Shown here: piece after piece, positions 16,066 through 64,000 of the stretch
Layout of the letters: each line of letters starts with the position of its first letter
Position numbering within the stretch: the first letter of the stretch is position 1
Assembly: GCF_020614395.1 (NCBI RefSeq)
Contig: NZ_CP085325.1
Location: 1 to 64,000, forward strand
Reading direction: 5' to 3'
Length of the DNA: 64,000 nt
From: Salarchaeum japonicum
GTDB lineage: Archaea; Halobacteriota; Halobacteria; Halobacteriales; Halobacteriaceae
The notes under the pieces: generated by a model
Seen by the model: the letters and a program-made list of their open reading frames with translations, nothing else
What the model was told of the DNA's origin: nothing
Database searches by the model: none
Program-made: the position numbers and the translations under genes

Positions 16066-17391
16066 CTACTGATTGAGTTGTGCATTCACGACGGTGCGGA
16101 GTTCGTCATTGTGGACATCATCAAGTCGTGAATCCTCTCGAAGCGTCTCGATGATAGTCTCCGGATTCTCACCAAACGTGAACTCGAGGTAGCTGCCTGA
16201 GTGTGGACCCTGACTCTTCCGCTCTGTCTCGACTAACGAATACGTCGTAAGTTCCTTCATTTTGTTCACGTACGTCTCCTGGTGGTACTGGTCCGAATCC
16301 AGGGTACCCGTCAAGTACTGATACACCCGGTAACCAATCGGGCTCTTTGCTGCACCAGTTCCGGCCTCACGGGCCACAGCTGCAGTCGCGAACAGACAGA
16401 GCTTCTTCTGCGTACTAATCCCACGTGTCACCTCCAACACGCGGTTCTTTTCAACCTTATCTTGGGCCTCTCGAACGTGCTCTTCACGGACTTTGTCTGC
16501 ACCTGTTTTTTCTGCAATCGACCCCGCTGTTCGCATCAAGTCGATTGCCTTCCGGGCATCCCCGTTGGTTTGGGCGGCGAATGCTGCTGCGAGCGGGATG
16601 ACGTCATCGCTGAGTGCATCCTCGTGAAAAGCGTCTTCCCGAGCCCGGAGAATCTCCCGGAGTTGGTTGGCGTCATAGTCACTAAAGTGAACGTCCTCGG
16701 GAGTGAACGAGCTGAGAGCGCGACTTCCCACACTCTCCATCATCTTCGTGTCGTTCGTGATGGCAGTAACAGAAACTTGGGCGGTGATCTCATCGGTGCT
16801 TCCAGCACGAGAGAGCTGATAGAGAAGGCGGGAGAAGGCTGGTTCGTCCTTGTCGCGACGACCGACGAGCATGTCGAGTTCATCGAGAATGAATACGACT
16901 GTATCGTAGTGGTCGTTGATCAGACGGTAGAGTTCGCGCCATTTTTTCTTGTTTGGAACCCCGTGTTCCGGAACGTCGACACTCGTTCCGATGTCGTTCG
17001 CCACCTTTCGTGCAAGTTCGTAGACGGCTGCACCGAGGGTGCCCACGTTCTGGCAGTTCATCTGGATGACACCGAACCGGATGTCACGACTCTCACAGAG
17101 TTCGACGATGTTCTGACAGACGGCGTTGATGATGAGCGATTTCCCGGTCCCAGAGGGGCCATAGAGGAGAAGGTTCGGCGGTCGTTCGTTACTTATTGCG
17201 ACACGGAGGTGCTGAGTAATATCGGTGAGTTGGGTGTCACGACCGACGATACGTTCTTCGTCGACGATCTCGTTCGGTTCGAGGAGTGACCGGTTCTTGA
17301 TGAGACTCGCGGCTTCTTCCTGCTCGAGAATGAGATCTTTGATAGAACCCGTGGACTCGGAGGTTTCCTCGGGACCAGGATCCGTGGGCAT
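16066..17391 (-). CDS. orc: Orc1/Cdc6 replication initiator
   Basis: A 441-residue AAA+ initiator that recognises the plasmid origin and recruits the helicase. Walker A is GPSGTGKS (about 78-85) and Walker B is VVFILDELDML (about 162-172). Sensor 1 is VTAITND and sensor 2 is NGDARKAIDLMR; a winged helix occupies roughly 330-441. The ATG at 17391 is preferred over an in-frame GTG at 17403 because a TTTTAGTATCC box lies about 27 bp upstream, giving a leaderless transcript. Iterons with the same consensus flank the gene on both sides, the usual cis-linked arrangement of haloarchaeal orc genes and their origins. Confidence 0.95.
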   Translation of the reverse strand: MPTDPGPEETSESTGSIKDLILEQEEAASLIKNRSLLEPNEIVDEERIVGRDTQLTDITQHLRVAISNERPPNLLLYGPSGTGKSLIINAVCQNIVELCESRDIRFGVIQMNCQNVGTLGAAVYELARKVANDIGTSVDVPEHGVPNKKKWRELYRLINDHYDTVVFILDELDMLVGRRDKDEPAFSRLLYQLSRAGSTDEITAQVSVTAITNDTKMMESVGSRALSSFTPEDVHFSDYDANQLREILRAREDAFHEDALSDDVIPLAAAFAAQTNGDARKAIDLMRTAGSIAEKTGADKVREEHVREAQDKVEKNRVLEVTRGISTQKKLCLFATAAVAREAGTGAAKSPIGYRVYQYLTGTLDSDQYHQETYVNKMKELTTYSLVETERKSQGPHSGSYLEFTFGENPETIIETLREDSRLDDVHNDELRTVVNAQLNQ

Positions 17392-17565
17392 ACCGGGACA
17401 CACTCTATCAGGATACTAAAAGATTCCCCTGTCGATTTCTTTTCTATCGGTATGACGTTCAGAACCAGGATATCGGAGGGTTACACCGTTGTCCTCTGCG
17501 GCCCCCGACGATTTGTTAGGACCCCTTCGTCTCGACCGATCCAGGAGAACTCCCGAACACCCTCT

Positions 17566-49427: not shown

Positions 49428-50681
49428 CTACTTGGACCGACCGCCGAATAACCGACCCAACAGTGAGGATGACTCTGACTCACTACTGTTCTCACTCGTA
49501 GTAGCGGCGTGCTCGCCCTGGCACTCCTCCTCCTGGCCACGGGTGGCGAGTTCGTCAGTGAGTCGCTTGACCTCCGCTTCGAGAGCGTCGATGCGCTCGG
49601 TTTTCTCCGTGAGTGTCGCCTCGAGCTCGTCGACGCGGTCGCTCAAGATCTGGTTCTTCTCGGCGAGATACGCGCGACTCCGCTCCGAGTCAGCAGCGCC
49701 GACGTCTGGCGACGATGTGGCGGGGATCTCGTCCGCGGTATCGTCGCCGGCGTCCGGGTCGTAGAACTCCGAAGTAGTCGCAATTGCTCGCTCGATGGTC
49801 TTCTCCCCATACGTCGACCCATCAGCGTAGTGGACCTCGTCCCACTTCTCCCGAAGCAATCCTGACTGGCGAAACAGGTGATCCATCTGCGTCCGGTCGC
49901 CACCGGTCCAGAACGCCAGCAGACAGCACAGCGCCATGTCGGCCTCGGACTGGCTGTCGTAGCCGGCTGTGTTCCCGTTCCAGAGCCGCTCGAACTTCTC
50001 GCCGTTCGATGCATTCCGCGCTTTCTCGAGGAGGTCCTCGTCTTCGAGGTCGACGTCAACGCCGGCTGCACCGGTCGTCGGTGACTCGTCGTCAGCGCTA
50101 CCACGCTGTTCGGACTCTGCTGCCGTGTCACGCTCTGTCTCCTGAACGTACTCACGGTGAATCGCTCTGAGCGCGTCCTGTCGACGTGCGACGCACGTTG
50201 GTGTCCGCTCGACGTGATCGCCAGTGACGGTGAAAAATCGTGCCGTGTCGTACAGTTCGATGCTCCCGCGACGGTTCCGCCCCTCGGGAAGTTCGCCCCT
50301 GATGAGGACGTGATAGCCGGTGCCGGACGGTGACACCTCCGTATAGGAGTCGAGGCGCTCGATGATGTCTAGTGCCGCGTCGTCGACGTCGCCGGTTTCA
50401 GGATCACGGCAGTCGTCCAGGTCGACACCGACGATGGGATCGTCGTCGGTAAACACGAACCCAACGCCATCGGCGTGTGCCGTCTCGGTGTAGTCGAGCG
50501 CTGTCTCGAAGCTCGCCCAGGTCTCCGACTCTGTTGATGACGCGAACCCCCCACCTCCCGGCGTCACCGGAATCTTCGTCGACTTGCCGTCCCGCTCCTC
50601 TTCGCGCCAGCACACCCACTGGTCCCGTTCGCGTAGCGTCTCCGGAATCGCCTCCGATTCGTCGATACTACTCTCACTCAT
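49428..50681 (-). CDS. AEP-type primase-polymerase (PrimPol) with coiled-coil tail
   Basis: A 417-residue protein. N-terminal archaeo-eukaryotic primase domain: GVGFVFTDDDPIVGVDLDDC (metal-binding Asp87/Asp89/Asp90), SPSGTGYHVLIRG (His124) and a third acidic motif in IELYDTARFFTVTG (near 145). A middle domain (210-300, NASNGEKFERLWNGNTAGYDSQSEADMALCCLLAFWTGGDRTQMDHLFRQSG) matches the helical region found after such primases in phage NrS-1-like proteins. Residues 335-390 are a coiled coil. It would prime the plasmid or the transferred strand. No helicase domain is attached. The start at 50681 follows a promoter region with TTGCCGTAAC repeats. Confidence 0.9.
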   Translation of the reverse strand: MSESSIDESEAIPETLRERDQWVCWREEERDGKSTKIPVTPGGGGFASSTESETWASFETALDYTETAHADGVGFVFTDDDPIVGVDLDDCRDPETGDVDDAALDIIERLDSYTEVSPSGTGYHVLIRGELPEGRNRRGSIELYDTARFFTVTGDHVERTPTCVARRQDALRAIHREYVQETERDTAAESEQRGSADDESPTTGAAGVDVDLEDEDLLEKARNASNGEKFERLWNGNTAGYDSQSEADMALCCLLAFWTGGDRTQMDHLFRQSGLLREKWDEVHYADGSTYGEKTIERAIATTSEFYDPDAGDDTADEIPATSSPDVGAADSERSRAYLAEKNQILSDRVDELEATLTEKTERIDALEAEVKRLTDELATRGQEEECQGEHAATTSENSSESESSSLLGRLFGGRSK

Positions 50682-51069
50682 CCTCACATAGCACCTCGCA
50701 TGGCTCTCACTGGCTCTGAGCCAGCACAGACTTCACGCTGCTCTGCGTGTCGATCCAATCCCTTGGTCCCAACGGGGAACCCCCGTTCTATCCTAGTTGG
50801 TTTTTGCCGTAACAGATCATTCAAATCAGTGAAATCCTGGGTCTGAGGCTCCCGATACGTGCATACAGCAAAATCTCTCCAGAATGCTTGTGTTACGGCA
50901 TTTCGGTTGGTTGCCGTAACCCCTCTCCGTCTGCTGATTTCGGTGCTGCGGAGACGATATGCCTCGATGTTTCCGTAACGCGAGAGGCATTTCCTGTTAT
51001 GCAAACTCAAATTTACATTTACGATATATTTGGCGCTGAGTGTGGATTGCATTGTATTCCCCTCCAGAT
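50682..51069. promoter_or_regulatory. PrimPol promoter region with TTGCCGTAAC repeats
   Basis: A stretch of 388 bp without a gene. Repeat copies: TTGCCGTAAC at 50804-50813, its inverse GTTACGGCA at 50892-50900 facing a second TTGCCGTAAC at 50911-50920, and TTTCCGTAAC at 50970-50979. An operator for primase control is inferred. Confidence 0.55.
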
Positions 51070-54000
51070 CTATTCTGATTTGAGTGCAAGCCCCTCGTAG
51101 TATCGAACAGAGTCGCCGTTCTCATTGTCTGTGTTCCGCTCGAACGTGACATAGTTCCCGAGGCGACGGCCGAACCAGGGTTTGCTATCTGTATCAATCC
51201 CGTGAGCCTCAGCCCACTGCTCGTAGATTTCGTAGACATCTCCGGCGGCTACTCTGCTTTCCGGATCTTCGACGAGGTGTGTCTCTGCGAATCGCTCAAC
51301 AACCGCCTCTGGATCCTCAGCAATATCGTCAATCGATGGCTGAGGCGCCTGCTGAATATGGTCTGCCTGTTCTCCTGTCGTTTCTTCGCACCCACTTGTG
51401 GTGACGGTATCGAGTAAGGTGTCCATCGAGTACGTACCGTCAGTATCGTACACGACCGGGTTGCCTTCTTCAGGGAGAATGACGATAGCGTACGACGTGG
51501 GGCTATAATCGGGTGTCTGGAGTTCGGCTTCGGGGACGAATGGCTTCTTGATACGCACCCAGTCGCCCTCGAACGCCGATTTCGTCTCGTAGATGTGTTG
51601 CTCACCGTGCTCGTATACGACGTACTCGTCGGCAGCGTGGTCGTAGCTGTAGATGGCCGGAACACGATCTTTCGAGAGTTTTCCAAGCGACGGGAGGCGG
51701 ATGTGTTCCGTCCCGCTGGCATCACGAAGGATGATCTCATCGCCATCACGCTGCCAGATGTTCTGAGTCCCGTTCTCGTCGTCGGTCGCCGGTCGGACGG
51801 CCGTCACTCCACCTTCTTCGGTCGCTCCACCGTTGAACGTGAGATTCGAGTCAGTCGTGTAGAACCGTGTCTCACCATTCTGGAGTGTGCGAACGGGTGG
51901 TGTGAGAATGCCGTCGACACGCTCGGCCCACTCAGTTTCGTCGTTTCCTGGTCGAACGACAAACAGCGGGATATCCCCTGCTTCTTGGGCTTTCCGGAGA
52001 TTCGTGAGCACCTTCGCGGGATTCTCGGGTGTCGTCGTTTCGACTTCGATGGCGAATCGGTCGGAAACGTCGGGGTGGCTCGCCCTCGCGTCAGGTTTCT
52101 CGCTGCCATCCTGTGCGAGGATCGAGACGGTGAAACCGAGTGCAGTGAGTTCTTCTTCGATCTGAAGGAGTGCTGCGTCGTGGGCACTCCCACCGGCGGC
52201 CTGCACGCCACCAGTATCGGGTGTCGCGACCTTTTCTCCGGCGTCAGTGAGCCGGATGCGGAGCTCGTCGGCGTCGATATCGACGGTCGTATCGAGGTAT
52301 CGTGATCGTTCGCGAATGTCCGCGAGTGCATCATACGATGGCGGCTCGGCGTCGACGTCGTCAAAGAGGCGTCTGAGTTCGTCGTCAACCGCTTCAACGG
52401 CCACCCAACCGTTCTCCTCACGGCATCCTTCTCGAAGCTGGAGACTCCGGACCACCGTCGCAATCGCGACGTCCAGGTCGTCGCTCGCGATATCGAGCAC
52501 TCCGTGTCCGTCGGTCGGTGTTCTCGTTGTTGAGGCGTCTGTTGCAGCCGGCACGCCGTGTTCCTCGCTGATGTTCTCGTGCATCGAGGAGAGTGTCTCA
52601 GTGAACTGCTCCTCTTCACGCTCTGTGAGCGGAGATTCGCTCTCGGGGTGGCCCGGTGGAATCGGGAGTGGTTCGAGACTGAACGGATACGGCCCCGTTT
52701 CACCGAACGTCGGGCTTGGCAGGCTGGCGATCCACTCCCCTCGTGGCAACGAACGAATCCGATTGGCGAAATCCGCGGGGTCCATCTCTTCGTGGGCCAT
52801 CGCTCGCGCCAGTTCCCGGTCGACGTTGATTTTCCCGATGAGTGAACTGCCGATGTTGTTCAGAGCATTCAGGTAGATCTTCCGCCCACCTTCAGCCTCC
52901 ATCTGTTCGGGGAACTGCATCGACAGGCCAACAGAGAGCCGGAATCCCCGGCCTTTCTCGAGGAGATCATTCATGATGTCGGAGACTACGACCGACGCTG
53001 CCTCGTCGACGAGCAAGTTCACGACGTAGTCGTCCGAGTGCTGGGAGAGGGCCTGTTTGCGGTCCTTGAGAGCTGCATCGAGATTGGTCAGGATCACACC
53101 AGTCATGATCCGGGCAGCGTCGTCGCGGAGATCTCCGAGGTCGAAGAGGATGACCGTATCCTCGTCGAGGACATCCCGAAAGTCGAACTGGTTCTCGGTA
53201 TTGTTGAAGATCTGCCGCAGGTGCGTATCCTGTGAGATGTAGGCGAGACGGTTTCCGACACCCCCCATCACGTTCGCGAAGGTGTTCGAATCTAACTGGA
53301 GTTGCCGTCGAATCGTCCGCGTGACTTCCTCGTCGCTCGACCGTGGGGCGTCGCCGATGTTCTCGTTCGGTGGCCCGGCCTCCCAGAGCTGGTCGACGAC
53401 GTGTTCGAGCTGTCGGTGGGCAAAGTAATCCGTCGACGCTCGGTAGAGCCCGTTCTCACGCCCGTATTCCTCGTCGAACAGTGCCTTGATGAGTGTCTTG
53501 ATGAGAGTTGGAGCCACAGTCGCCCGCTCGTAGCGGTCGGTTCCCATCACGAGCTTCAAAATCTCTTCGTAGTGGTCGGCCTTCCGTTGGACGGCGTCTT
53601 CGCGGCGCCGTCCGCTCTCCATCGACGGTTCGAGATCGAAAAACGAGAACCCGGGGAGGACGTCCGGAATCGGGAAGTGGACGACGTTCTCTTCGAGGTC
53701 GGTCATTCCGAACCGACGCGCGTGAGCCCGCATGTAATTCTGGGCCATATCGTCGTTTTTCGGGATGATGAGGATCGTCGGCCCCTCGGTGTTGTCGTAC
53801 AGCGACAGCATATCGTTGATGAGGGCTTTCGACTTCCCAGAGCCGGTTGTTCCGAACCGGCCGTAATGAGTGGGCAGCAGTCCGGGTGGAATGTGTGTCG
53901 GCTCGTCTTCGGCCTCGCCGGTGTCGTCGAGGGCATACCCGATTGCCATCCCGTCTCGGAACTCACTCATGAGGTCTTGGTGCGGACGGGGCAACGGATT

Positions 54001-55365
54001 CCGACTCTGCTGTTCCGCACGCGTCCCCCGTGTCCCCTCGACAGTAAGCTGTTCCGAGGAGGGGACGAGTACGAAGTGCGCGAGTTCTCGGCCGCTCAGG
54101 ACGAACTCCGGTCGGGTCTTTCCACGGCCAGTCGTGATCTCACGATCCAAGAGCCGCTGCAGCGCCGCTCGGGCGTTTCGTTCTTTCGTGGCTGCCCGGA
54201 AGCCGCTGTTGCGTACCCGTTCGGCCGCAACCTGGTAGTACGGTCCATCAAGCGGGTCGAATACCGGGACAAGTGATTGCATCCGCTCATCGAGTTCACC
54301 GCGACCGTCGTCACCGGATGGAATCCCGATTGCTCGGACATTCGCAGTGAACGACCGCTTCGGATTTTTCGCCTCAATCGCCTCGACACGTTTTGCAACC
54401 GCATCGCTCAGCTGGTTTCTGTCCCGGCTCTCCGACTGATCGTCGAGTTCGAAAAGGGAGCCAATAATTTCCTGAGCGAGTGTGTCTCGTCCGTCGATGA
54501 CGTCCTCCTTGCGAAGGTCGGCATCGGACTGCCAGCTCTCGCGTCGTTGGAAGACGACCTGGAACGCTACTGGTGCTGTCGCCTCCATCAGATGGTCGAC
54601 GAGTGACGCGAGCGCACCTCCTGGCTGATCGACGGCTGGGAGTTCTGCTTCGTCGTCGGCAGTAACTGGCAAGAGTGAGGTCATCCAGTCTTGCTTCCGA
54701 GTCGCCGACCCTTGCCACCGTACGCCGAGTGGGGAGACGGATTCGGTCGCTGGCCGTGCGAGTATCGTCCCCTCCGATGTTACCGTTGGTTTGGCAAGCG
54801 TGGTGAGTGGCTCATCCTCAGGAATCGCATCTGGTGGGGCGAGTTCGAGGGCAGTATCACCAATCTCGATGAAGTGGTCGGCAGACTGGTCACCGACTGT
54901 TCCTCCATCCGCGACTGATTCGGCGTCTGCTGGCCCCGCTTGTTTGTTGTCGTCAGTGCCACGTTCGTATTGCTCGTCAGGGCCGAACTCATACCTGAGC
55001 CCGCCCGAGTTATACTGCTCGACGAATGTCTCTCGGTCGAATTCGACAGGCTGCACGAGTCGGGATGCGACGTCGACCTCGGTACGCTCGATGTCGAACG
55101 TCTCGGGATAGACCGACTGGAGCCGCTTCTCAAGGGTATCTAGATGGTCGTCGGCACCGTAGTAGAATTCGACGGGGTCATCTGCCCCCTCGCTCAGCGC
55201 GAGAAATTCGAATTGTATCGGTGTGTCGCTATGTAGCGGATTGAGTTTGTCAACTAGCCCTGTCGAGTCCGTTGAGGTCAGTTTGTGGAGGCTCTCCAGT
55301 GCCTGCGGCAGACGCTCCGGATTGAGGCGTTCGGAGGTTGGCGTCACGCGAAGATACTCACGCAT
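51070..55365 (-). CDS. Type IV coupling ATPase fused to nuclease-like and primase-type C-terminal domains
   Basis: A 1431-residue protein. A VirD4/TraD- or HerA-like ATPase core: Walker A GRFGTTGSGKSKALIND near 505 and Walker B NLLVDEAASVV near 785, preceded by about 480 residues of mixed alpha/beta. Around 1070-1130 lies ALLQIEEELTALGFTVSILAQ then SDRFAIEVETTTPENPAKVLTNLRKAQEAGDIPLFVV, which resembles a PD-(D/E)XK nuclease fold with E-x-E. The last 80 residues (VYEIYEQWAEAHGIDTDSKPWFGRRLGNYVTFERN... YYEGLAL) match the C-terminal module of P4/D5-type primase-helicases. The start at 55365 overlaps virB4 by eight bases and has GGAGGTG. Such a fusion would link DNA pumping to end processing. Confidence 0.85.
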   Translation of the reverse strand: MREYLRVTPTSERLNPERLPQALESLHKLTSTDSTGLVDKLNPLHSDTPIQFEFLALSEGADDPVEFYYGADDHLDTLEKRLQSVYPETFDIERTEVDVASRLVQPVEFDRETFVEQYNSGGLRYEFGPDEQYERGTDDNKQAGPADAESVADGGTVGDQSADHFIEIGDTALELAPPDAIPEDEPLTTLAKPTVTSEGTILARPATESVSPLGVRWQGSATRKQDWMTSLLPVTADDEAELPAVDQPGGALASLVDHLMEATAPVAFQVVFQRRESWQSDADLRKEDVIDGRDTLAQEIIGSLFELDDQSESRDRNQLSDAVAKRVEAIEAKNPKRSFTANVRAIGIPSGDDGRGELDERMQSLVPVFDPLDGPYYQVAAERVRNSGFRAATKERNARAALQRLLDREITTGRGKTRPEFVLSGRELAHFVLVPSSEQLTVEGTRGTRAEQQSRNPLPRPHQDLMSEFRDGMAIGYALDDTGEAEDEPTHIPPGLLPTHYGRFGTTGSGKSKALINDMLSLYDNTEGPTILIIPKNDDMAQNYMRAHARRFGMTDLEENVVHFPIPDVLPGFSFFDLEPSMESGRRREDAVQRKADHYEEILKLVMGTDRYERATVAPTLIKTLIKALFDEEYGRENGLYRASTDYFAHRQLEHVVDQLWEAGPPNENIGDAPRSSDEEVTRTIRRQLQLDSNTFANVMGGVGNRLAYISQDTHLRQIFNNTENQFDFRDVLDEDTVILFDLGDLRDDAARIMTGVILTNLDAALKDRKQALSQHSDDYVVNLLVDEAASVVVSDIMNDLLEKGRGFRLSVGLSMQFPEQMEAEGGRKIYLNALNNIGSSLIGKINVDRELARAMAHEEMDPADFANRIRSLPRGEWIASLPSPTFGETGPYPFSLEPLPIPPGHPESESPLTEREEEQFTETLSSMHENISEEHGVPAATDASTTRTPTDGHGVLDIASDDLDVAIATVVRSLQLREGCREENGWVAVEAVDDELRRLFDDVDAEPPSYDALADIRERSRYLDTTVDIDADELRIRLTDAGEKVATPDTGGVQAAGGSAHDAALLQIEEELTALGFTVSILAQDGSEKPDARASHPDVSDRFAIEVETTTPENPAKVLTNLRKAQEAGDIPLFVVRPGNDETEWAERVDGILTPPVRTLQNGETRFYTTDSNLTFNGGATEEGGVTAVRPATDDENGTQNIWQRDGDEIILRDASGTEHIRLPSLGKLSKDRVPAIYSYDHAADEYVVYEHGEQHIYETKSAFEGDWVRIKKPFVPEAELQTPDYSPTSYAIVILPEEGNPVVYDTDGTYSMDTLLDTVTTSGCEETTGEQADHIQQAPQPSIDDIAEDPEAVVERFAETHLVEDPESRVAAGDVYEIYEQWAEAHGIDTDSKPWFGRRLGNYVTFERNTDNENGDSVRYYEGLALKSE

Positions 55366-57565
55366 CGTCGCCACCTCCCGTTTCGCCGCCATCAGTCTCT
55401 GTTGGCGTCCGCTCAGATTGGAGTTGTCCGTTGTCAGTCCCTCGGCGTTCAATCTCGTCTTGGAACGCCTGCACGTCCGCGTCCACGGCGTTCTCACCAG
55501 TCCCGGGGAGTGAGGATCGCCGTTGCTCGGTTGGCTCGAAGTCGATGACTTGCTTCTCTTTGGGCATCGCTTTGACCTGGATGCCGCGCCACTCGCCGTC
55601 GACGCCCACCAGCGCCTCGGAGAAGCCGGCGTCCTCGTTACCAGGAACGGCGTCCTGGACGAACCGCATCTGTGCGTAGTTCAGACCGAACTCGTCGGCC
55701 CACTCCTCGTCCATCCCGTCGAGGCGGTGGAACTGCTTGACCGCACACTGGTCCAGAATCGCCTCGGATTCGGCGTGCTCGAAGAACTCGTCGACGGTCT
55801 GCGTGACCAGCCGGATCGAGAGGTCGTGATGCCGGTGGTGGCGGAACACTGTCTCGAGGAACGCCAGACTCGCGGCGTCCTGCATGATGTAGCGCGCCTC
55901 GTCGATGTAGAACACGACCTCCTTCTCCGAGACCTTCGCTCGCTCGTAGACCAGCGAGATGAGCAGCTGCATGGTCAGCGCCGTACTGCTGTCGACGCTC
56001 CCCTCCTGCTGGGCGAGGTCGAGATAGATGACCTTCTCGTCCCGGATGTCGAAGTCGGATTCCTGGCCGAGGTTGGCGTGGCGACCGTCGTCCTCGAAGG
56101 GACGGAGCTGATCGAGCAGCCACGTTGCGTTCTCTTTGATCTTCCCCGCCTCCTCGTCGGACCGGACGACGAACTCCTCGGGGTCGTCGACCATATCTTC
56201 GAACACGTCCATCATCTCGCGGATGGTCGGACTCGGATTGCTGTGCGTCGAGATGTCGTCGGTGATCCCGTTGCGCTGGTAGGCACGTTTGAGGGCGAGT
56301 TCGAGCGTGGTGCGCCGATCTCCCAGTGAGATACCCCGGAGGGCGAAGAAGTTCGTGAGGAAGCTCATCGCGTCGTCGAGTTTCTCGTTGAACGGGCTCG
56401 CGTCCTCACCCATCGCCCGCTGGACGTGTTCGGGCGTCTCGCGGATTTCCAGCGGATTCAGACCGAGCGTCCCGCCAACCGTGATCCGCTTGGCGTCGAG
56501 CGCCTCTGAGACGCCGGCCCAGTTGTTCAATGGTTCGAGGATGATGCCGATGCGGTCCTTGCTCTGCTCAATCGACCGGATGAAGTTCTGCTTCGAACTG
56601 AACGACTTTCCCGACCCGGTGTCGCCGACGGTGAACATCGCGTACCCGTTATCTCGCGCAAACGGGTCGATGACCACGGGGCTCTGGTTGTCCTTGTGGA
56701 TCCCGAACTCGACGCCGCCCTCCTCGAGAATCGTCGCGTTGTGCGGCGAGGACAGCAACGCGCCGACGGCGCCGCCGAGTGCGATCGACGTCCGGCCGAA
56801 CTCGTTGTCGCCGATGGGCGCGGCGGACTGGAGGGCGAGATCCTGGCGACAGATGGCCGTCTTCGGCGTGAGGTTCGCCGGGTCGTCCCGGAGCGCACTC
56901 TTGACCGTCTGGACGGCGTCTCTGAGGTCGTCTTTCTCGTCGGCCCGCACGGTGATGAACATCCCTTGGTCGAAGACGTTCGCGCCGTTCTCGACGGCCT
57001 TGTACGTCGCTGCAGCCTCGTTGGCGCGTTCCTGTAGGTAGGCACTCCGGATACTCTGTTCGAGGTCAGCGTCCACCTGAAGGTCGTCAGCGATGTCCTG
57101 CAGTTCGTTCCGGGCCCGCTCCTGATTTTTCGGCGTGATATGGGCCGTCAGATCGAACTGGACGTCGGTCATCTCGAAGAGGTCGCTCAGATACCCGTCG
57201 TTGGGATAGTCGGCATAGTTAGCGATGTACAGCGTCGACGTCCACTGCTCACCGACCTGTGCGGCTCGCGTTTCCCACTCAATCGCCGCCGGCGCGGTCA
57301 CCGTCTTGTGTGACTCGGAGATGTCGTCGAGGAGCTGGCGTTCGGCCTCGCCTTCTTCGAGTGTCTCCTCGTCGAGGACATCGGTAAAGTCCACGTCTGG
57401 TTCATCATCCGCAGTGAAGCGGTCCCAGAGGTACTTACTGCCGACGCCAAGGCCGAGACCCACTGCAAGGGCTAGTACTGCACTCTCTGCTGGTGTCAGA
57501 TTCTGGAGCCACCCGGCGACGGAGCCAAGCGCGCCACCATCAGTCTGGAGGATCACGTTACGCAT
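55358..57565 (-). CDS. VirB4/TraC-type secretion ATPase
   Basis: A 735-residue conjugation ATPase. A membrane helix near residues 25-45 (ESAVLALAVGLGLGVGSKYLW), a VirB4 N-terminal domain, Walker A FTVGDTGSGKSFSS near 317, Walker B EVVFYIDEARYIM near 553, and a Q-H-R-type end (RHHDLSIRLVTQTVDEFF). It energises DNA or protein export through the type IV channel. It overlaps both neighbours by eight bases (ATGCGTAA and ATGCGTGA), the tightest part of the transfer operon. Confidence 0.92.
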   Translation of the reverse strand: MRNVILQTDGGALGSVAGWLQNLTPAESAVLALAVGLGLGVGSKYLWDRFTADDEPDVDFTDVLDEETLEEGEAERQLLDDISESHKTVTAPAAIEWETRAAQVGEQWTSTLYIANYADYPNDGYLSDLFEMTDVQFDLTAHITPKNQERARNELQDIADDLQVDADLEQSIRSAYLQERANEAAATYKAVENGANVFDQGMFITVRADEKDDLRDAVQTVKSALRDDPANLTPKTAICRQDLALQSAAPIGDNEFGRTSIALGGAVGALLSSPHNATILEEGGVEFGIHKDNQSPVVIDPFARDNGYAMFTVGDTGSGKSFSSKQNFIRSIEQSKDRIGIILEPLNNWAGVSEALDAKRITVGGTLGLNPLEIRETPEHVQRAMGEDASPFNEKLDDAMSFLTNFFALRGISLGDRRTTLELALKRAYQRNGITDDISTHSNPSPTIREMMDVFEDMVDDPEEFVVRSDEEAGKIKENATWLLDQLRPFEDDGRHANLGQESDFDIRDEKVIYLDLAQQEGSVDSSTALTMQLLISLVYERAKVSEKEVVFYIDEARYIMQDAASLAFLETVFRHHRHHDLSIRLVTQTVDEFFEHAESEAILDQCAVKQFHRLDGMDEEWADEFGLNYAQMRFVQDAVPGNEDAGFSEALVGVDGEWRGIQVKAMPKEKQVIDFEPTEQRRSSLPGTGENAVDADVQAFQDEIERRGTDNGQLQSERTPTETDGGETGGGDDA

Positions 57566-58679
57566 CGTGTGGGTCCTCCCGGCGCGAGTGGCCGATGATC
57601 GATTGGTCGCGAACGACACGTTCCGCCTCGTCGTAGTCATGTTCGCGGCCGTTCCAGAAGTCCATATTCAGGACGAACAGCTCGACCGTGCTGAGTCGAC
57701 GTGCGGACCACCCCGACGCCTGCTGGATGAACTCGGAGCGAACATCATTCACGCGACTGTCGAGCTTCTCGAACATCTGCGCACGACGTTCGACGTCGGT
57801 GAGGTCCTCGCGGCGGGTGACGAACGGGTTGAACAGGAAGCCGATGACCGGGAACTGGGTCAGCTTCTCGGCGGGGGTGCCCTCGTCACGGAAGCGGTCG
57901 TACACTTCTATCGGGCTGACTTCAACGCCGATGTAGTACCGGACCTGCTGAATGCCCCGGTCACGCATCTCCTTCGGCCGTGTTTCCCGATATTCTTCGA
58001 GGAGTTCCCGGAAAATCGGGTTCTCCGTGACGTCTTCGTCAGTGAGTCGATCCTCGATGGTCTCAGTGATCTGCTCGACTGGGAAAGAGCGGGTTGTGGC
58101 GTGGAGTTTGAGCTTCGAGTCCAGCTCTTTGTTAGCGAACTCTTCGCCGGCGTCCTGCAGCTGCGCCCAGTCGTCGGACATCGCGAAGTCCATATTGGCC
58201 GGATCGATCTCGATGAACGCCTCCATCGCGCCGTCTTCACGCTGGATAGCACCAGCGCCCGGCCACGCTCGCTTGATGTTCGTGAGGTCCTGCGTTCGCT
58301 CGTCCGGCTTGAACGGCGTGTAGTTCGCGAGTCCGCCTTGGTTGCGCTCTGTCTCGTTGGTACTCGTGTCGGCGTCGGCGGGCGCACTGAACGTGACCTG
58401 AGGCCGTTTGAGGTATCGATAGACGTCTTTGGTCCACGTCCAGGCATTCAGGTGGGTTGGTGAGACGTAGATGACGGCGACGCCAAAGCCAAGCCCGCCA
58501 GCAACGAACGGGAGAGCCAGTGATTCGATCCCGGTGAGGCCCGCGATAAACAGCCCAATAATGGGGAAGGCGATGAGCATGCCGACGTCCCCTTCCTCGA
58601 TATTGAGATACGGGATGCGGCTCTCCTCGCCGAACTGATCCATGATGCGCCGTGCGGCCGCGTCTTGATCTGCTGACAT
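57558..58679 (-). CDS. VirB3/PrgI-like membrane component
   Basis: A 373-residue protein. N-terminal RIPYLNIEEGDVGMLIAFPIIGLFIAGL and then LALPFVAGGLGFGVAVIYVSPTHLN are two membrane helices in the PrgI/VirB3 layout, followed by ALNAWTWTKDVYRYLKRPQVTFSAP. The long C-terminal part resembles a VirB4 N-terminal domain (MDFAMSDDWAQLQDAGEEFANKELDSKLKLHATTRSF), as in archaeal and firmicute VirB3-VirB4 units. It precedes virB4 with an eight-base overlap. Confidence 0.85.
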   Translation of the reverse strand: MSADQDAAARRIMDQFGEESRIPYLNIEEGDVGMLIAFPIIGLFIAGLTGIESLALPFVAGGLGFGVAVIYVSPTHLNAWTWTKDVYRYLKRPQVTFSAPADADTSTNETERNQGGLANYTPFKPDERTQDLTNIKRAWPGAGAIQREDGAMEAFIEIDPANMDFAMSDDWAQLQDAGEEFANKELDSKLKLHATTRSFPVEQITETIEDRLTDEDVTENPIFRELLEEYRETRPKEMRDRGIQQVRYYIGVEVSPIEVYDRFRDEGTPAEKLTQFPVIGFLFNPFVTRREDLTDVERRAQMFEKLDSRVNDVRSEFIQQASGWSARRLSTVELFVLNMDFWNGREHDYDEAERVVRDQSIIGHSRREDPHDA

Positions 58680-58681
58680 TG

Positions 58682-59797
58682 TTAGTGGATTCCTCGATCA
58701 AACTCCATCCCACGGTCGTCACTCGCCGATTCCGCTGTCGCTCCACCTGGGTCGTTCTCTGTTCGACGGTACGACGGCGTGCCGCCATCGTTTCCTCCAT
58801 GCCCACCGCGGGCAGCCGCTTTTTGCGCGACGGCATGACCGGCAGCGGCTTTCGGCCCCCACCGAGCGGCGGTCGTCGCGACGCCGGCGCCACCGACGTA
58901 GGCTCCAGCGGCGACACCGCCAACGAGTGCTACGCCTTTCGTCGCACCGCCGACGACTTTGGCCGTCAACGGGGTCGCGTATTTGAACGTCTTCCACGTG
59001 ATGTAGAGGGCGACCAGCGGAAGAGACGCAGCGACGAGATATTTGAGGAATGCTGTTCCTGGTGTGAGCGTTCCACCGCTGTAGATCAAGTCGTACCCCT
59101 TGAGGACCATCGCTGCCGGGAGCGGGAGGACAGCCAACGGGACAAACCGTTTGCAAAACCCCATCGCGATATCGGATACGACCGGAATATTTCCGTAGGC
59201 CAGTGCAAATGCAATCGGCATTCCGTACAGGTAGACATACAGCAGAATCATCCGGATGTAGAACAGCGCCTCCAACGCCCACATCGAGATTCCACCAATC
59301 ACGGCAAACAATAATCCCAGCCCTGGGTTTGTGATAGATACTTCCAAGAATCCAATCATCGCCTCCGTAACCGAGGAAAGCTCCGGCATCAGGGCGATAG
59401 TGAATCCGTCAACGAGGTAGAGCGCGAGAGTCCCAATCCAGTACCACGTAATGATTAGAAAAGCACCGACCCAGGCCGTTTTCTTCGTTTTTCGGGCTTC
59501 GTAGGTACTTCCAATATTGAAGATCCGAACCGTGTGACGGCCCTGAACGCTCATCACAAGGAGCAAGAGGGCAACTAGCATGATTTCGCCGCCGATGAGA
59601 GCATCGTGAATCGCTGGCCAGGGTGCATTGGTCGGTTCACCGAAGACAAAAGCTCCGTTCGTCTCTGGAGTAGGTGTCCCGAACATTCCCTCAGTCAGAG
59701 TTTCATACCCTGATCTGAGACCGTCCATGAACAGCCCAATGAACCACTCAACGACGCCCTTGATACCCTCAAGGACGACATCAATGAGATCGACCAT
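58682..59797 (-). CDS. VirB6/TrbL-like multispanning membrane protein
   Basis: A 371-residue protein. Six to seven membrane helices between residues 70 and 300 (GGEIMLVALLLLVMSVQG; VGAFLIITWYWIGTLALYLVDG; LGLLFAVIGGISMWALEALFYIRMILLYVYLYGMPIAFALAYG; KYLVAASLPLVALYITWKTF), then a Gly/Ala-rich region and a hydrophilic tail. This is the VirB6-like channel component. Its stop is two bases from the start of the VirB3-like gene. Confidence 0.82.
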   Translation of the reverse strand: MVDLIDVVLEGIKGVVEWFIGLFMDGLRSGYETLTEGMFGTPTPETNGAFVFGEPTNAPWPAIHDALIGGEIMLVALLLLVMSVQGRHTVRIFNIGSTYEARKTKKTAWVGAFLIITWYWIGTLALYLVDGFTIALMPELSSVTEAMIGFLEVSITNPGLGLLFAVIGGISMWALEALFYIRMILLYVYLYGMPIAFALAYGNIPVVSDIAMGFCKRFVPLAVLPLPAAMVLKGYDLIYSGGTLTPGTAFLKYLVAASLPLVALYITWKTFKYATPLTAKVVGGATKGVALVGGVAAGAYVGGAGVATTAARWGPKAAAGHAVAQKAAARGGHGGNDGGTPSYRRTENDPGGATAESASDDRGMEFDRGIH

Positions 59798-60638: not shown

Positions 60639-62375
60639 CTACGGGTTCCGTTGGAAGATGTCTTCTGGACCGAGCATTCGGAGAAGTCGCTTGCCAGCGT
60701 AGAACATCACAACAAACGGGATGAGCTGCCAGCCGACCTCGAAAATGAACGCGAACCAACCGTCGATGGTGCCAAGCGGGTGCCAGCGAGCAGTTGCCAT
60801 CGCACTCACGTATGCGGGGTCGTGCCCGAGCCACGAACCCGGATGGTACCGAGCCGTGTAGATACCCGGCTTGTCGATCGTCACAATCGCTACCCCGGAG
60901 GCGTTGGTCTCAACACGTTGCTCCGCGATGGTGATGTACCCGTTGCGAGTGTTCCCGCCGATTGGATATCGTCGGTCGGGATCGCTGAGCACGATTGGTG
61001 CGCCGGTCTCGTTATCCCGGAGCTCGATGCGGAGTGTGGCCTGGCTTTCGTTCTGCTGGAGCACCTCAACAGTCAGATTACTGCGCCGGAGCTGCCGCTC
61101 TGAGCTAGCGTCAGGTGCCACAATCGAGGCGTTCACGCCCCGCACGATCCCCGCTACCTGGAGCGCGTCGCGGTCGACGTTCTCCGCGCGAACCGCAACA
61201 CCGTACGTCGTCGTGTACGACTGGTTGACGATGTCGATGTTGATGTTCTCACCGAGCGTGCCGACCGGAGACGGTCGGTCAATGCCCCAGGTGTCGATGA
61301 TCTCTGGGCCATCGCGAACTGGTTCAGCCCTCGGGCCGATCCGCGATGGATATGCATGGACGTACACGGGAATTGCGTCAGACTCGACGGTGGCGCTGTC
61401 GGTCCGGTTCGACCTGACGAGGGTATCCCAATTGGAGTTCCGAGCGGTGTAGAACCGCCAGACGCCACGCACTCGTGCGCTTCCATTCTCCGTCAGCGTG
61501 TACCCCTGCCACGGTCGAGACTGGAAAATGGCCACACCGGCGTCACCATTGGGATACTCGGCGTAGTAGGGGTACGCTGAGAGGTCGTAGATCTCGACGG
61601 CGATCGAATCCGAGACGTTGAGCGACTCGGTTCGGTACGTGACCTCGACATCGGTCTCGTCGCCTCGGTCGATTCGCGTGGTCTTCTTCAGCCGGACGCT
61701 GATCTCGGCTTCAAGCGTGAGGTTTGCACTCCAATCATCCTCGATCTGGTAGTCGAGGGCCGGCGTGTGCGAGCCGTCACGCTCGACGATGGTTTCGCCG
61801 TCCTTCTGCAATCGAACCTCCTCGACCTCGTTGCTCGCGAGCGACCACTCGATCGTCGTGTTCCCCGAAGAGCTGCCGTTCGGGACGCGAACGCGATAGT
61901 CGACGAGCCCCCGCATCGTGCCGTTCGGCGCGATATAGAGCGGCGTATCACCCGACTCCAAGTGACCTCGCGTCGACGGCTGCACTGCGAATACCGTGGC
62001 GTGGGCGTCCTCGATAAACACGCCATCTTCGAGCGACGCGTGGCGCGGATGCACGGACGTATCCGACCCACCGGCTTCGAGATCAGCGAAGTCGTTTCGC
62101 GTCCACGTTGCAGCTGTCGCCGGCGGGCGCGTGAACGTGATGTCCGTCCCGTTTGCGAGCTGGTGCATCGCGGTCCGGCTCTCGCCGTAGCGCTGCTGGT
62201 ACTCCTCTTGGCTGATGTAGTTGTCCGCGTCGCGAGACCACAGCGTCGCTGATTCATTCTCAGTGAGCCCATTCCCCTCCGTGCCTGGCCGTGGCGGGCT
62301 TGCAGTAACGAGACCCGTGACTAGGCTCGTCACGAACAGGGCGGCCATTAGCACGGAGAGCTCTCGTTGTGTCAT
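60639..62375 (-). CDS. Large surface protein of the transfer operon
   Basis: A 578-residue protein. N-terminal signal peptide (LSVLMAALFVTSLVTGLVTASPP). A long extracellular part rich in NxS/T sequons and beta strands (GVIRGVNASIV, LTLEAEISVRLKK, NRTDSATVESDAIPVYVHAYP), then a C-terminal membrane helix IFEVGWQLIPFVVMFYAGKRLLRML with a basic tail. It may contact the recipient cell. Its role in mating is inferred from the neighbours. Confidence 0.82.
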   Translation of the reverse strand: MTQRELSVLMAALFVTSLVTGLVTASPPRPGTEGNGLTENESATLWSRDADNYISQEEYQQRYGESRTAMHQLANGTDITFTRPPATAATWTRNDFADLEAGGSDTSVHPRHASLEDGVFIEDAHATVFAVQPSTRGHLESGDTPLYIAPNGTMRGLVDYRVRVPNGSSSGNTTIEWSLASNEVEEVRLQKDGETIVERDGSHTPALDYQIEDDWSANLTLEAEISVRLKKTTRIDRGDETDVEVTYRTESLNVSDSIAVEIYDLSAYPYYAEYPNGDAGVAIFQSRPWQGYTLTENGSARVRGVWRFYTARNSNWDTLVRSNRTDSATVESDAIPVYVHAYPSRIGPRAEPVRDGPEIIDTWGIDRPSPVGTLGENINIDIVNQSYTTTYGVAVRAENVDRDALQVAGIVRGVNASIVAPDASSERQLRRSNLTVEVLQQNESQATLRIELRDNETGAPIVLSDPDRRYPIGGNTRNGYITIAEQRVETNASGVAIVTIDKPGIYTARYHPGSWLGHDPAYVSAMATARWHPLGTIDGWFAFIFEVGWQLIPFVVMFYAGKRLLRMLGPEDIFQRNP

Positions 62376-62403: not shown

Positions 62404-62826
62404 CTACCAGGGGGCGAGGTCGACGCACTGCGCCAGCGGGAGGTTCATCATCGACCCAGCGACGGTGTAGAGTGGGCCGAGGGCGACGAGGACGACCGCG
62501 GACTTCATCGCCGACCGTTTGTGCCGCTTGAGGCCCTTCTTCTGCTCGGGCGTGATCGTGAACATCTCGATAAGGGAGTCAGCCTGCCACACGACTGCGA
62601 GGCCGACAATGCCTAGCGCCGTGGTAAGCTGGAAGAAACCCTCGATCATGCCGGGAAGGTTGTCCGCACTACAGACGGCATTCGTCTGTGCGGCGGCGGG
62701 TCCCACAGCGAACAGGCTCAGGGCGACGACGATGAACATAGCTTGCCTGGGAAGCCTACTCGATGCCGTGGACTGGCTGTCGGGGCGATTCGAAGCCGTC
62801 TCGGAGGGCGTATTGTCCTGTGACAT
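62404..62826 (-). CDS. VirB2-like pilin candidate
   Basis: A 140-residue protein. A signal-like helix AMFIVVALSLFAVGPAAAQTNAVC, then two membrane helices (GMIEGFFQLTTALGIVGLAVVW; SAVVLVALGPLYTVAGSMM) separated by a basic loop KKGLKRHKR. The layout is that of VirB2/TrbC pilin precursors. Cysteines 52 and 135 could pair. It starts the cluster of membrane genes in the operon. Confidence 0.72.
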   Translation of the reverse strand: MSQDNTPSETASNRPDSQSTASSRLPRQAMFIVVALSLFAVGPAAAQTNAVCSADNLPGMIEGFFQLTTALGIVGLAVVWQADSLIEMFTITPEQKKGLKRHKRSAMKSAVVLVALGPLYTVAGSMMNLPLAQCVDLAPW

Positions 62827-63468: not shown

Positions 63469-64000
63469 TCAGATCACCCCCAACCAAAGCCCAGTGATAG
63501 CCAACAACAGCAACAACAGCACAGCGATTGCGGCCTTGTAATAGACCGGCGGGAGGCCCTCGGGTACGGCCGCCTCGTCGACTGCTTCGGCAAGCTCCCG
63601 TTCATGTTCGTGCTCTTGCTGGAAGGTCTCGTACGCGGCGTCGAGTTGCTGTGCCAGCGGCTTGACTTCGCCCGCCAAGAACTCCTCGCGGGAATTCACG
63701 ATATACTCACCGGCGGCCGTCGGCGTGATCGTTGCCACATCCGCGACCTGATCGGCGATTAACCGGTCGTCAGTATGCCCGATCGCCGTGACGATCGGGG
63801 TGTTTGCGGTGAAGATAGCTTCCGAGACCCGCTCGGTGTTGAACGCCTGGAGGTTCGAATCGCTCCCGCCACCGCGACCGACGATAATCGCGTCGACGTC
63901 CTCGGAGCGGTCCAGATGGTGGATGCCGTTCGCGATGGATGTGGGCGACTCCGACCCTTGGACGGTGGCGTCCTTCACCAGGATGTCGACGGTAGGGTCC
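63469..64000 (-). CDS. xseA: Exonuclease VII large subunit (XseA), partial
   Basis: C-terminal 176 codons of XseA; the start lies beyond the window. The frame is open to 64000 (DPTVDILVKDATVQG at the edge). Family signatures: DAIIVGRGGGSDSNLQAFN, VTAIGHTDDRLIADQVADVATITPTAAGE. The usual long C-terminal coiled coil is short, and the protein ends in a hydrophobic helix, YKAAIAVLLLLLLAITGLWLGVI, suggesting membrane anchoring. Exonuclease VII digests ssDNA; next to a conjugation operon it may process transferred strands. Confidence 0.88.
   Translation of the reverse strand, partial: DPTVDILVKDATVQGSESPTSIANGIHHLDRSEDVDAIIVGRGGGSDSNLQAFNTERVSEAIFTANTPIVTAIGHTDDRLIADQVADVATITPTAAGEYIVNSREEFLAGEVKPLAQQLDAAYETFQQEHEHERELAEAVDEAAVPEGLPPVYYKAAIAVLLLLLLAITGLWLGVI

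Follow-up and report, generated by a model that had tools for sequence, protein, structure and literature searches.

How archaeal conjugative elements choose and process the DNA that they transfer is an open question: no relaxase has been recognised in archaeal conjugative plasmids, and a structural study and a review leave the mechanism open (PMC9905601, PMC12857230). We address this question with a locus of Salarchaeum japonicum, contained in a stretch of DNA (the window) that covers the initial 64 kb of a contig of 135,207 bp. The locus encodes a coupling-protein-like ATPase of 1431 residues, which an earlier note on this DNA had read as a VirD4-like motor fused to a nuclease-like segment and a P4/D5-type primase module, and it continues behind the motor gene with an array of iterons, a conserved inverted repeat and a primase gene. 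Comparison with relatives shows that the C-terminal end of the motor and the iterons are exchanged together, as would be expected if the one recognises the other.

The D5 end and the iterons behind the motor gene

The protein is formed by a VirD4/HerA-like motor, a winged-helix-like segment, a nuclease-like domain, a beta-rich part and a D5 end. This order, here called type A, is one of two found among the homologues; type B has, after the motor, a winged helix with weak matches to PadR/eS10 winged helices and a nuclease-like domain, but no D5 end. The D5 end of the window protein reaches 18.5 bits against Pox_D5, under the cut-off of 21.4, and the same family matches all 33 type-A homologues (best 2e-8), 31 of which match TIGR01613, the P4-type primase C-terminus. 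A Foldseek search with the confidently modelled end retrieved the DNA-binding domain of RFX1 on its X-box (1dp7, TM 0.87) and that of RFX5 (TM 0.81), a viral primase-polymerase ranking lower in the list. Because of these matches with RFX DNA-binding domains, the end is classed as a DNA-binding winged helix of the sequence-specific type, with an RFX fold and no catalytic primase part.

The gap between the motor stop codon and the primase start, directly upstream of the primase gene, is occupied by iterons. These are of the GTTACGGCA type in the window and of the TGGGTGGAA, CCCCTGACC, GTTACGACA or GTCCAGGCA type in relatives, with 4-6 copies in most loci compared with at most 3 in shuffled sequences. 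For motors that share at least 80% identity over residues 1-1330, the iteron type is not predicted by identity in segments up to residue 1260 (area under the curve, AUC, 0.41-0.57); the segments at residues 1261-1380 predict it perfectly (AUC 1.00), with a sharp boundary near residue 1260. Identity in the D5 domain is at least 0.79 within the same iteron type and at most 0.39 between types. The other boundary of the exchange, on the right-hand side, falls between the iterons and the constant core described below, and in motor pairs less than 70% identical the D5 segment still gives an AUC of 0.87, compared with 0.32-0.73 elsewhere. Such tight bounds, together with persistence in distant pairs, are the pattern that a DNA-binding domain with its target would show, and we consider it very probable that the D5 domain reads the iterons.

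About 4 bases past the iterons begins an inverted repeat of constant length, CCRAC-N22-GTYGG, which is the candidate core of an origin. Pairing is kept through changes on both sides: G-C replaces A-T at the third pair of the repeat in seven sequences, and the outer pair has become A-T once. None of 500 shuffles reaches this total of 8 double-changed cells. The covariation is compatible with either a hairpin or a site that a dimer binds in duplex DNA. An inner hairpin, the best-folding one, was discarded, as it is the outer repeat that is conserved, and an Rfam scan of the site gave no match. The core has a single match in this genome, at 50788-50802. Across 392 genomes it has 81, as opposed to about 5 with the reversed control, and most of the 81 have a D5 end about 200-270 bp upstream and a primase directly downstream. 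Grouping by hand of 25 core sites without a listed motor adjacent gave ten with a type-A nuclease-D5 open reading frame (ORF) 200-270 bp upstream and a primase-polymerase directly downstream, four with a D5 ORF, three with a primase or primase piece alone, five orphan iteron-plus-core sites, and three that have no inverted repeat and look like chance matches. Sites without a nearby motor are expected of cis-acting origins, and the iterons with the inverted repeat are likely to represent an origin of some kind.

The orphan iteron-plus-inverted-repeat sites lie on large replicons with no motor or primase nearby (L193-L196, L211) and are candidates for mobilisation in trans. No clear iteron array follows the primase genes of type-B loci. 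An ORF of 122 residues at 50684-51052 is probably no gene: it overlies the iterons, and in close relatives other, unrelated iterons take its place.

The motor family, its nuclease-like domain and the paired primase

Homologues of the motor occur in 259 of 392 genomes of the haloarchaeal class and on 179 plasmid records, 178 of which are called non-mobilisable by MOB-suite. Because of this distribution the fusion is the usual form of the family and not the oddity of a single plasmid; it is standard, in two C-terminal types, across haloarchaeal clusters resembling type IV secretion systems (T4SS). The homologues adjoin VirB4, VirB6 and VirB3-like genes, and orthologues are annotated at NCBI as conjugative DNA transfer or TraM-recognition proteins. 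Residues 1-935 comprise a long N-terminal region and the motor with its invariant Walker motifs; over 37 diverse homologues GTTGSGKS and VNLLVDEA are invariant or nearly so. As to a VirD4/TrwB fold as opposed to VirB4 or HerA, the Pfam matches (TraG-D_C and DUF87) are weak and under the cut-off, the motor model is of low confidence (mean predicted local distance difference test, pLDDT, of 35 for a B-type motor with its C-terminus), and a PDB profile search with the motor gave a weak helicase match as its sole result. The 1431 residues are counted from the ATG at 55365, where the ORF shares 8 bases with the end of the VirB4 gene; the GTG at 55497 is a possible start too, but it would enlarge the VirB4 overlap, and homologue alignments begin at the ATG. 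The ORF and the motor proposed in the earlier note were borne out, and the fusion that it singled out is real, no one-off but the norm of the family, and recurs widely in other haloarchaeal transfer clusters, where it had proposed to look for it.

A second lineage has a divergent motor, in most members apparently split over two ORFs (L198, L203, L207, L208, L215-L217, L111); it keeps the nuclease-beta-D5 end, and L198, L203, L207, L208 and L215-L217 also keep the core site and the primase-polymerase.

In the nuclease-like domain H1062, D1092, E1107 and E1109 are invariant in 33 type-A homologues, down to 37% identity. At the matching positions of 29 diverse B-type modules the H, the D and one E never vary, and the second E of the pair hardly does. 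With hhalign the A and B modules aligned in register across 86 columns at a score of 40.2 (E 4e-6; maximum in 100 column shuffles 18.5), which indicates that they are homologous; an earlier comparison with few B sequences had given no signal, and significance was reached once diverse B sequences were used. A PD precedes the ExE strand, and the pattern resembles that of PD-(D/E)xK nucleases with E for K. It is possibly a variant of the kind seen in BamHI, which has E at the K position of this motif and is active. The order of secondary structure elements in the low-confidence model fits an alpha-beta-beta-beta-alpha-beta core. Motif conservation and the homology between both types, with the fold unconfirmed, suggest nuclease activity, and we lean towards a catalytic domain.

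The B-type winged-helix-nuclease module is also present in chromosomal ATPases of 1150-1300 residues, and free-standing versions were observed as ORFs of about 270-310 residues (L118-L123; one of 377 residues). Two C-terminal modules of B-type (L107, L110) have E-A-I/V instead of E-x-E and are paired with a longer, 730-residue NrS-1-type primase-polymerase. Matches to HSDR_N_2 in long ORFs bear no relation to the motor family.

The gene that follows the iterons and core encodes an NrS-1-type primase-polymerase with the catalytic DxD and SGxGxH retained. Among the type-A loci with enough sequence (n=49) a primase-polymerase of this kind lies downstream in 48 and PriS in none, while 20 of the 36 type-B loci have PriS-type or primase-associated genes, 3 a primase-polymerase, and 13, mostly chromosomal, none of these. 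On the VirB4 tree the C-terminal type and the primase type switch jointly at five supported points, all five in the same direction; in one pair the VirB4 proteins are 97% identical, yet the motor C-halves and the primases differ, and the breakpoint lies within the motor gene. The C-terminal half of the motor together with the primase thus behaves as a DNA-processing cassette that can be exchanged while the channel module stays constant. One locus (L197, 6602-16944) has a B-type motor with PriS genes and then a lone D5 ORF, iterons, core and primase-polymerase; it looks like an A-type remnant that has received a B cassette on its upstream side.

Three further claims of the earlier note are modified by these results. 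The P4/D5-type module is of D5 type by Pox_D5 and TIGR01613 and is modelled as an RFX winged helix without a primase step; the suggested joining of delivery, cleavage and replication holds as a link to a replication enzyme, which is encoded by the next gene (49428-50681) and not by the D5 end; and the EVETTT segment, read as PD-(D/E)XK-like, is real, has invariant acidic residues and resembles that motif with E for K, in a fold that structure prediction did not confirm. That prediction, which the note had proposed for the C-terminal region, modelled the terminal winged helix and was unusable for the nuclease part.

Features of the locus and of the adjoining transfer cluster, in window positions
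Feature	Position	Strand	Evidence
Coupling-protein-like ATPase, 1431 residues	51070..55365	-	intact single ORF, motor motifs, Pfam, homologues
Walker A GTTGSGKS, residues 505-512	53830..53853	-	G508, G510, K511 and S512 invariant
Walker B region VNLLVDEA, residues 782-789	52999..53022	-	E788 and A789 invariant
Winged-helix-like segment (probable), about residues 960-1045	52231..52488	-	alignment; by position in type A
Nuclease-like domain, about residues 1055-1150, with H1062, D1092, E1107-x-E1109	51916..52203	-	invariant columns; homology to B-type module
Beta-rich domain without known family, about residues 1160-1285	51511..51888	-	strands in low-confidence model; accompanies A-type C-termini
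Protein part of exchanged specificity cassette, residues 1261-1431	51073..51585	-	segment-wise identity against iteron type
C-terminal D5/RFX-type winged helix, residues 1344-1431	51073..51336	-	Pox_D5 in 33/33; pLDDT about 80-88; RFX DNA-binding domain 1dp7, TM 0.87
Iterons GTTACGGCA/TGCCGTAAC, 3 exact TTACGGCA copies and variants	50805..50980	-	comparison with relatives, shuffles
Conserved inverted repeat CCRAC-N22-GTYGG, candidate origin core	50769..50800	-	constant length; covariation; single copy in genome
NrS-1-type primase-polymerase with HBD, without helicase or D5 part	49428..50681	-	PDB 6a9w, E 4.6e-37; HBD 110 bits
VirB4-like ATPase	55358..57640	-	domain matches, conserved neighbourhood
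VirB3/PrgI-like membrane protein (probable)	57558..58679	-	position and sequence; kept upstream of VirB4
VirB6/TrbL-like channel protein	58682..59797	-	PF19590, 460.8 bits
Conserved surface-type protein of the cluster	60639..62375	-	conserved neighbourhood
Small two-helix protein, VirB2/CedA1-like by position (probable)	62404..62826	-	conserved neighbourhood

A proposed mechanism and its rivals

Searches with PF03432, PF01076, PF13814 and PF08751 found nothing over the cut-off in this genome; in 30 carrier genomes they gave three borderline PF03432 matches only, none beside the motor gene, and when 60 large ORFs from the replicon were scanned with Pfam, the best 25 of 28 families listed per scan included neither a relaxase nor a Rep family. 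The earlier note had seen no separate relaxase in the window, and at the sensitivity used no canonical relaxase, HUH type included, is visible in the rest of the 135 kb replicon either. That the nuclease-like domain of the motor replaces a relaxase, a part which the note had raised as a possibility for the protein, is a proposal to which we give slightly less than an even chance.

Taken as a whole, the locus is best explained, in a judgement that we hold as evenly balanced, by a haloarchaeal transfer system that is T4SS-like, works without a relaxase and has a coupling ATPase with origin recognition built in. In such a mechanism the D5/RFX winged helix would bind the plasmid-specific iterons just 3' of the motor gene and thereby load the motor onto its own plasmid. 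The inverted repeat would constitute the constant part of the origin, near which the nuclease-like domain would nick or cut the DNA, with the motor passing it into the VirB4/VirB6 channel and the NrS-1-type primase from the next gene priming the complementary strand. We strongly infer the binding of the iterons by the D5 end; cleavage, the function as a transfer origin and the form of the strand transferred are suggested steps. For the site itself, a transfer origin is slightly favoured over a replication origin. The complete scheme, in which one polypeptide recognises the origin through exchangeable iterons, cuts at the constant inverted repeat, pumps the DNA and hands it over to its cognate primase, with no relaxase and with the D5 end and iterons as specificity cassette, is offered tentatively.

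Several points weigh against this explanation. The D5 end and the iterons are adjacent in the DNA, so that one crossover pair moves both and co-exchange alone is no proof of binding. A sign test on the five co-switches gives p = 0.0625, and the motor tree, in which co-switching is too clustered for a test, yields just two independent pairs, so that the VirB4 tree was used instead. In the nuclease-like domain the K of the PD-(D/E)xK motif is replaced by E, D and ExE being conserved, and the fold is unconfirmed: the AlphaFold model of residues 955-1431 has a mean pLDDT of 50 and about 30 in the nuclease part, the B-type model mentioned above is unusable for this region, the match to the HSDR_N_2 profile is weak, and a comparison with Hjc, in the correct register, is not significant, 5 of 50 shuffles being equally good. 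Furthermore, the literature searched holds no demonstration of transfer by these haloarchaeal clusters, and the combination of iterons, primase and winged helix would also describe a replication origin.

The main rival is built on this last point and proposes a vegetative replication origin of the P4/pRN1 type: the D5/RFX domain, iterons, inverted repeat and primase-polymerase would make up a replication module, the coupling-type motor would take the place of the missing superfamily 3 (SF3) helicase, and the link to the transfer genes would be secondary. It agrees with the behaviour of pRN1 and P4 proteins with a C-terminal winged helix, whose site of action is a stem-loop or a set of repeats close to the gene that encodes them (PMC4234260), with a primase-polymerase devoid of the helicase and D5 parts that the motor carries, and with the locus in which a lone D5 ORF, iterons, core and primase-polymerase stand apart from a B-type motor. 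We nevertheless regard it as rather unlikely: the replicon has its own Orc1/Cdc6-type initiator (16066-17403, Cdc6_C 44.8 bits) 34 kb from the transfer module, this module is tied to VirB4/VirB6 genes, orphan sites occur on large replicons without a primase, and B-type clusters of the same T4SS lineage have neither the site nor the primase-polymerase.

It may also be that the nuclease-like domain is dead or structural and that nicking is carried out by an unrecognised enzyme, such as a divergent Rep (for example Rep-Arvir) or the host HerA-NurA, which we consider unlikely but a serious candidate. The replacement of K by E, the two B-type members with E-A-I/V and the unconfirmed PD-(D/E)xK-like fold would all agree with an inactive domain; moreover, HerA-NurA has been proposed for Ced/Ted (PMC9905601) and Rep-Arvir nucleases are present in archaeal plasmids (PMC13107129). 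The H, D and E residues are, however, conserved in both C-terminal types and in the free-standing versions, and the best 25 of 28 families listed for the scanned plasmid proteins include no Rep or relaxase. The example of BamHI, moreover, demonstrates function with E at the K position. A role of the D5 end and iterons in regulation or partition, with the domain repressing or activating the primase operon and the iterons as its operators, would suit both the location of the iterons directly upstream of the primase gene and the nature of RFX domains as transcription-factor domains; it is improbable, since it leaves unexplained why the domain sits on the motor and why orphan iteron-plus-core sites exist without a primase. 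A viral role, in packaging or as part of a provirus, is unlikely, five IMG/VR scans having found no relative.

The transfer cluster and known systems

Just past the T4SS-like cluster lies a homologue of the exonuclease VII large subunit (63469-64000 in the window, continuing to 64521; L064:3472-4521), which is unusual in an archaeal plasmid. The rest of the plasmid (L064-L067) encodes several heavy-metal P-type ATPases, copper oxidases, an ArsP permease and an aconitase; it also has TBP and TFB genes of its own.

Searches of the open-access literature turned up no account of this architecture, its iterons or their exchange. New here are the pairing of C-terminal type and primase, the iterons and inverted repeat between the motor and primase genes, and the co-exchange of D5 end and iterons. 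It is now possible to point to a stretch of about 200-300 bp as candidate origin, to the domain that would read it, to its exchangeable specificity and to candidate catalytic residues. The motor family is present in most haloarchaeal genera sampled, and each proposed step is testable in laboratory haloarchaea. The data offer a possible mechanism for direct recognition of a plasmid by its motor, and they suggest a way for such plasmids to label their DNA and initiate its transfer when the usual nicking enzyme is absent.

Among known systems, TraB of Streptomyces, unlike the motor described here, is FtsK-like, needs no other known T4SS subunits and moves double-stranded DNA. It recognises its plasmid site, clt, by a C-terminal winged helix that is FtsK-gamma-like and not RFX/D5, and to our knowledge it has no nuclease-like domain and no primase partner. 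As is proposed for the motor of the window, TraB needs no relaxase to recognise its own plasmid: it assembles at 8-bp TRS repeats in clt, and clt-like sites occur also elsewhere (PMC4170104, PMC12857230). VirD4/TraG coupling proteins, both MPF_FATA and archaeal, share the motor class and the VirB4/VirB6 neighbourhood; the classical ones meet a relaxase-DNA complex, whereas the motor of the window carries nuclease-like and D5 parts in the same polypeptide, and the searches found no relaxase. Plasmid pT33-3 and the Sulfolobus conjugative plasmids are likewise archaeal VirB4/VirD4 systems without a recognised relaxase (PMC12857230). The primase-helicases of the P4/NrS-1/pRN1 type resemble the locus in that a primase comes with a D5-type winged helix and acts at iterons or a stem-loop, and the neighbouring gene is itself of NrS-1 type; here, however, two genes share the modules between them, there is no SF3 helicase and a T4SS-type motor carries the winged helix. 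HerA-NurA also joins a motor of the same superfamily to a nuclease, although NurA is a separate protein with an RNase H fold, whereas the nuclease-like part of the window protein is PD-(D/E)xK-like and fused, with free-standing versions existing elsewhere.

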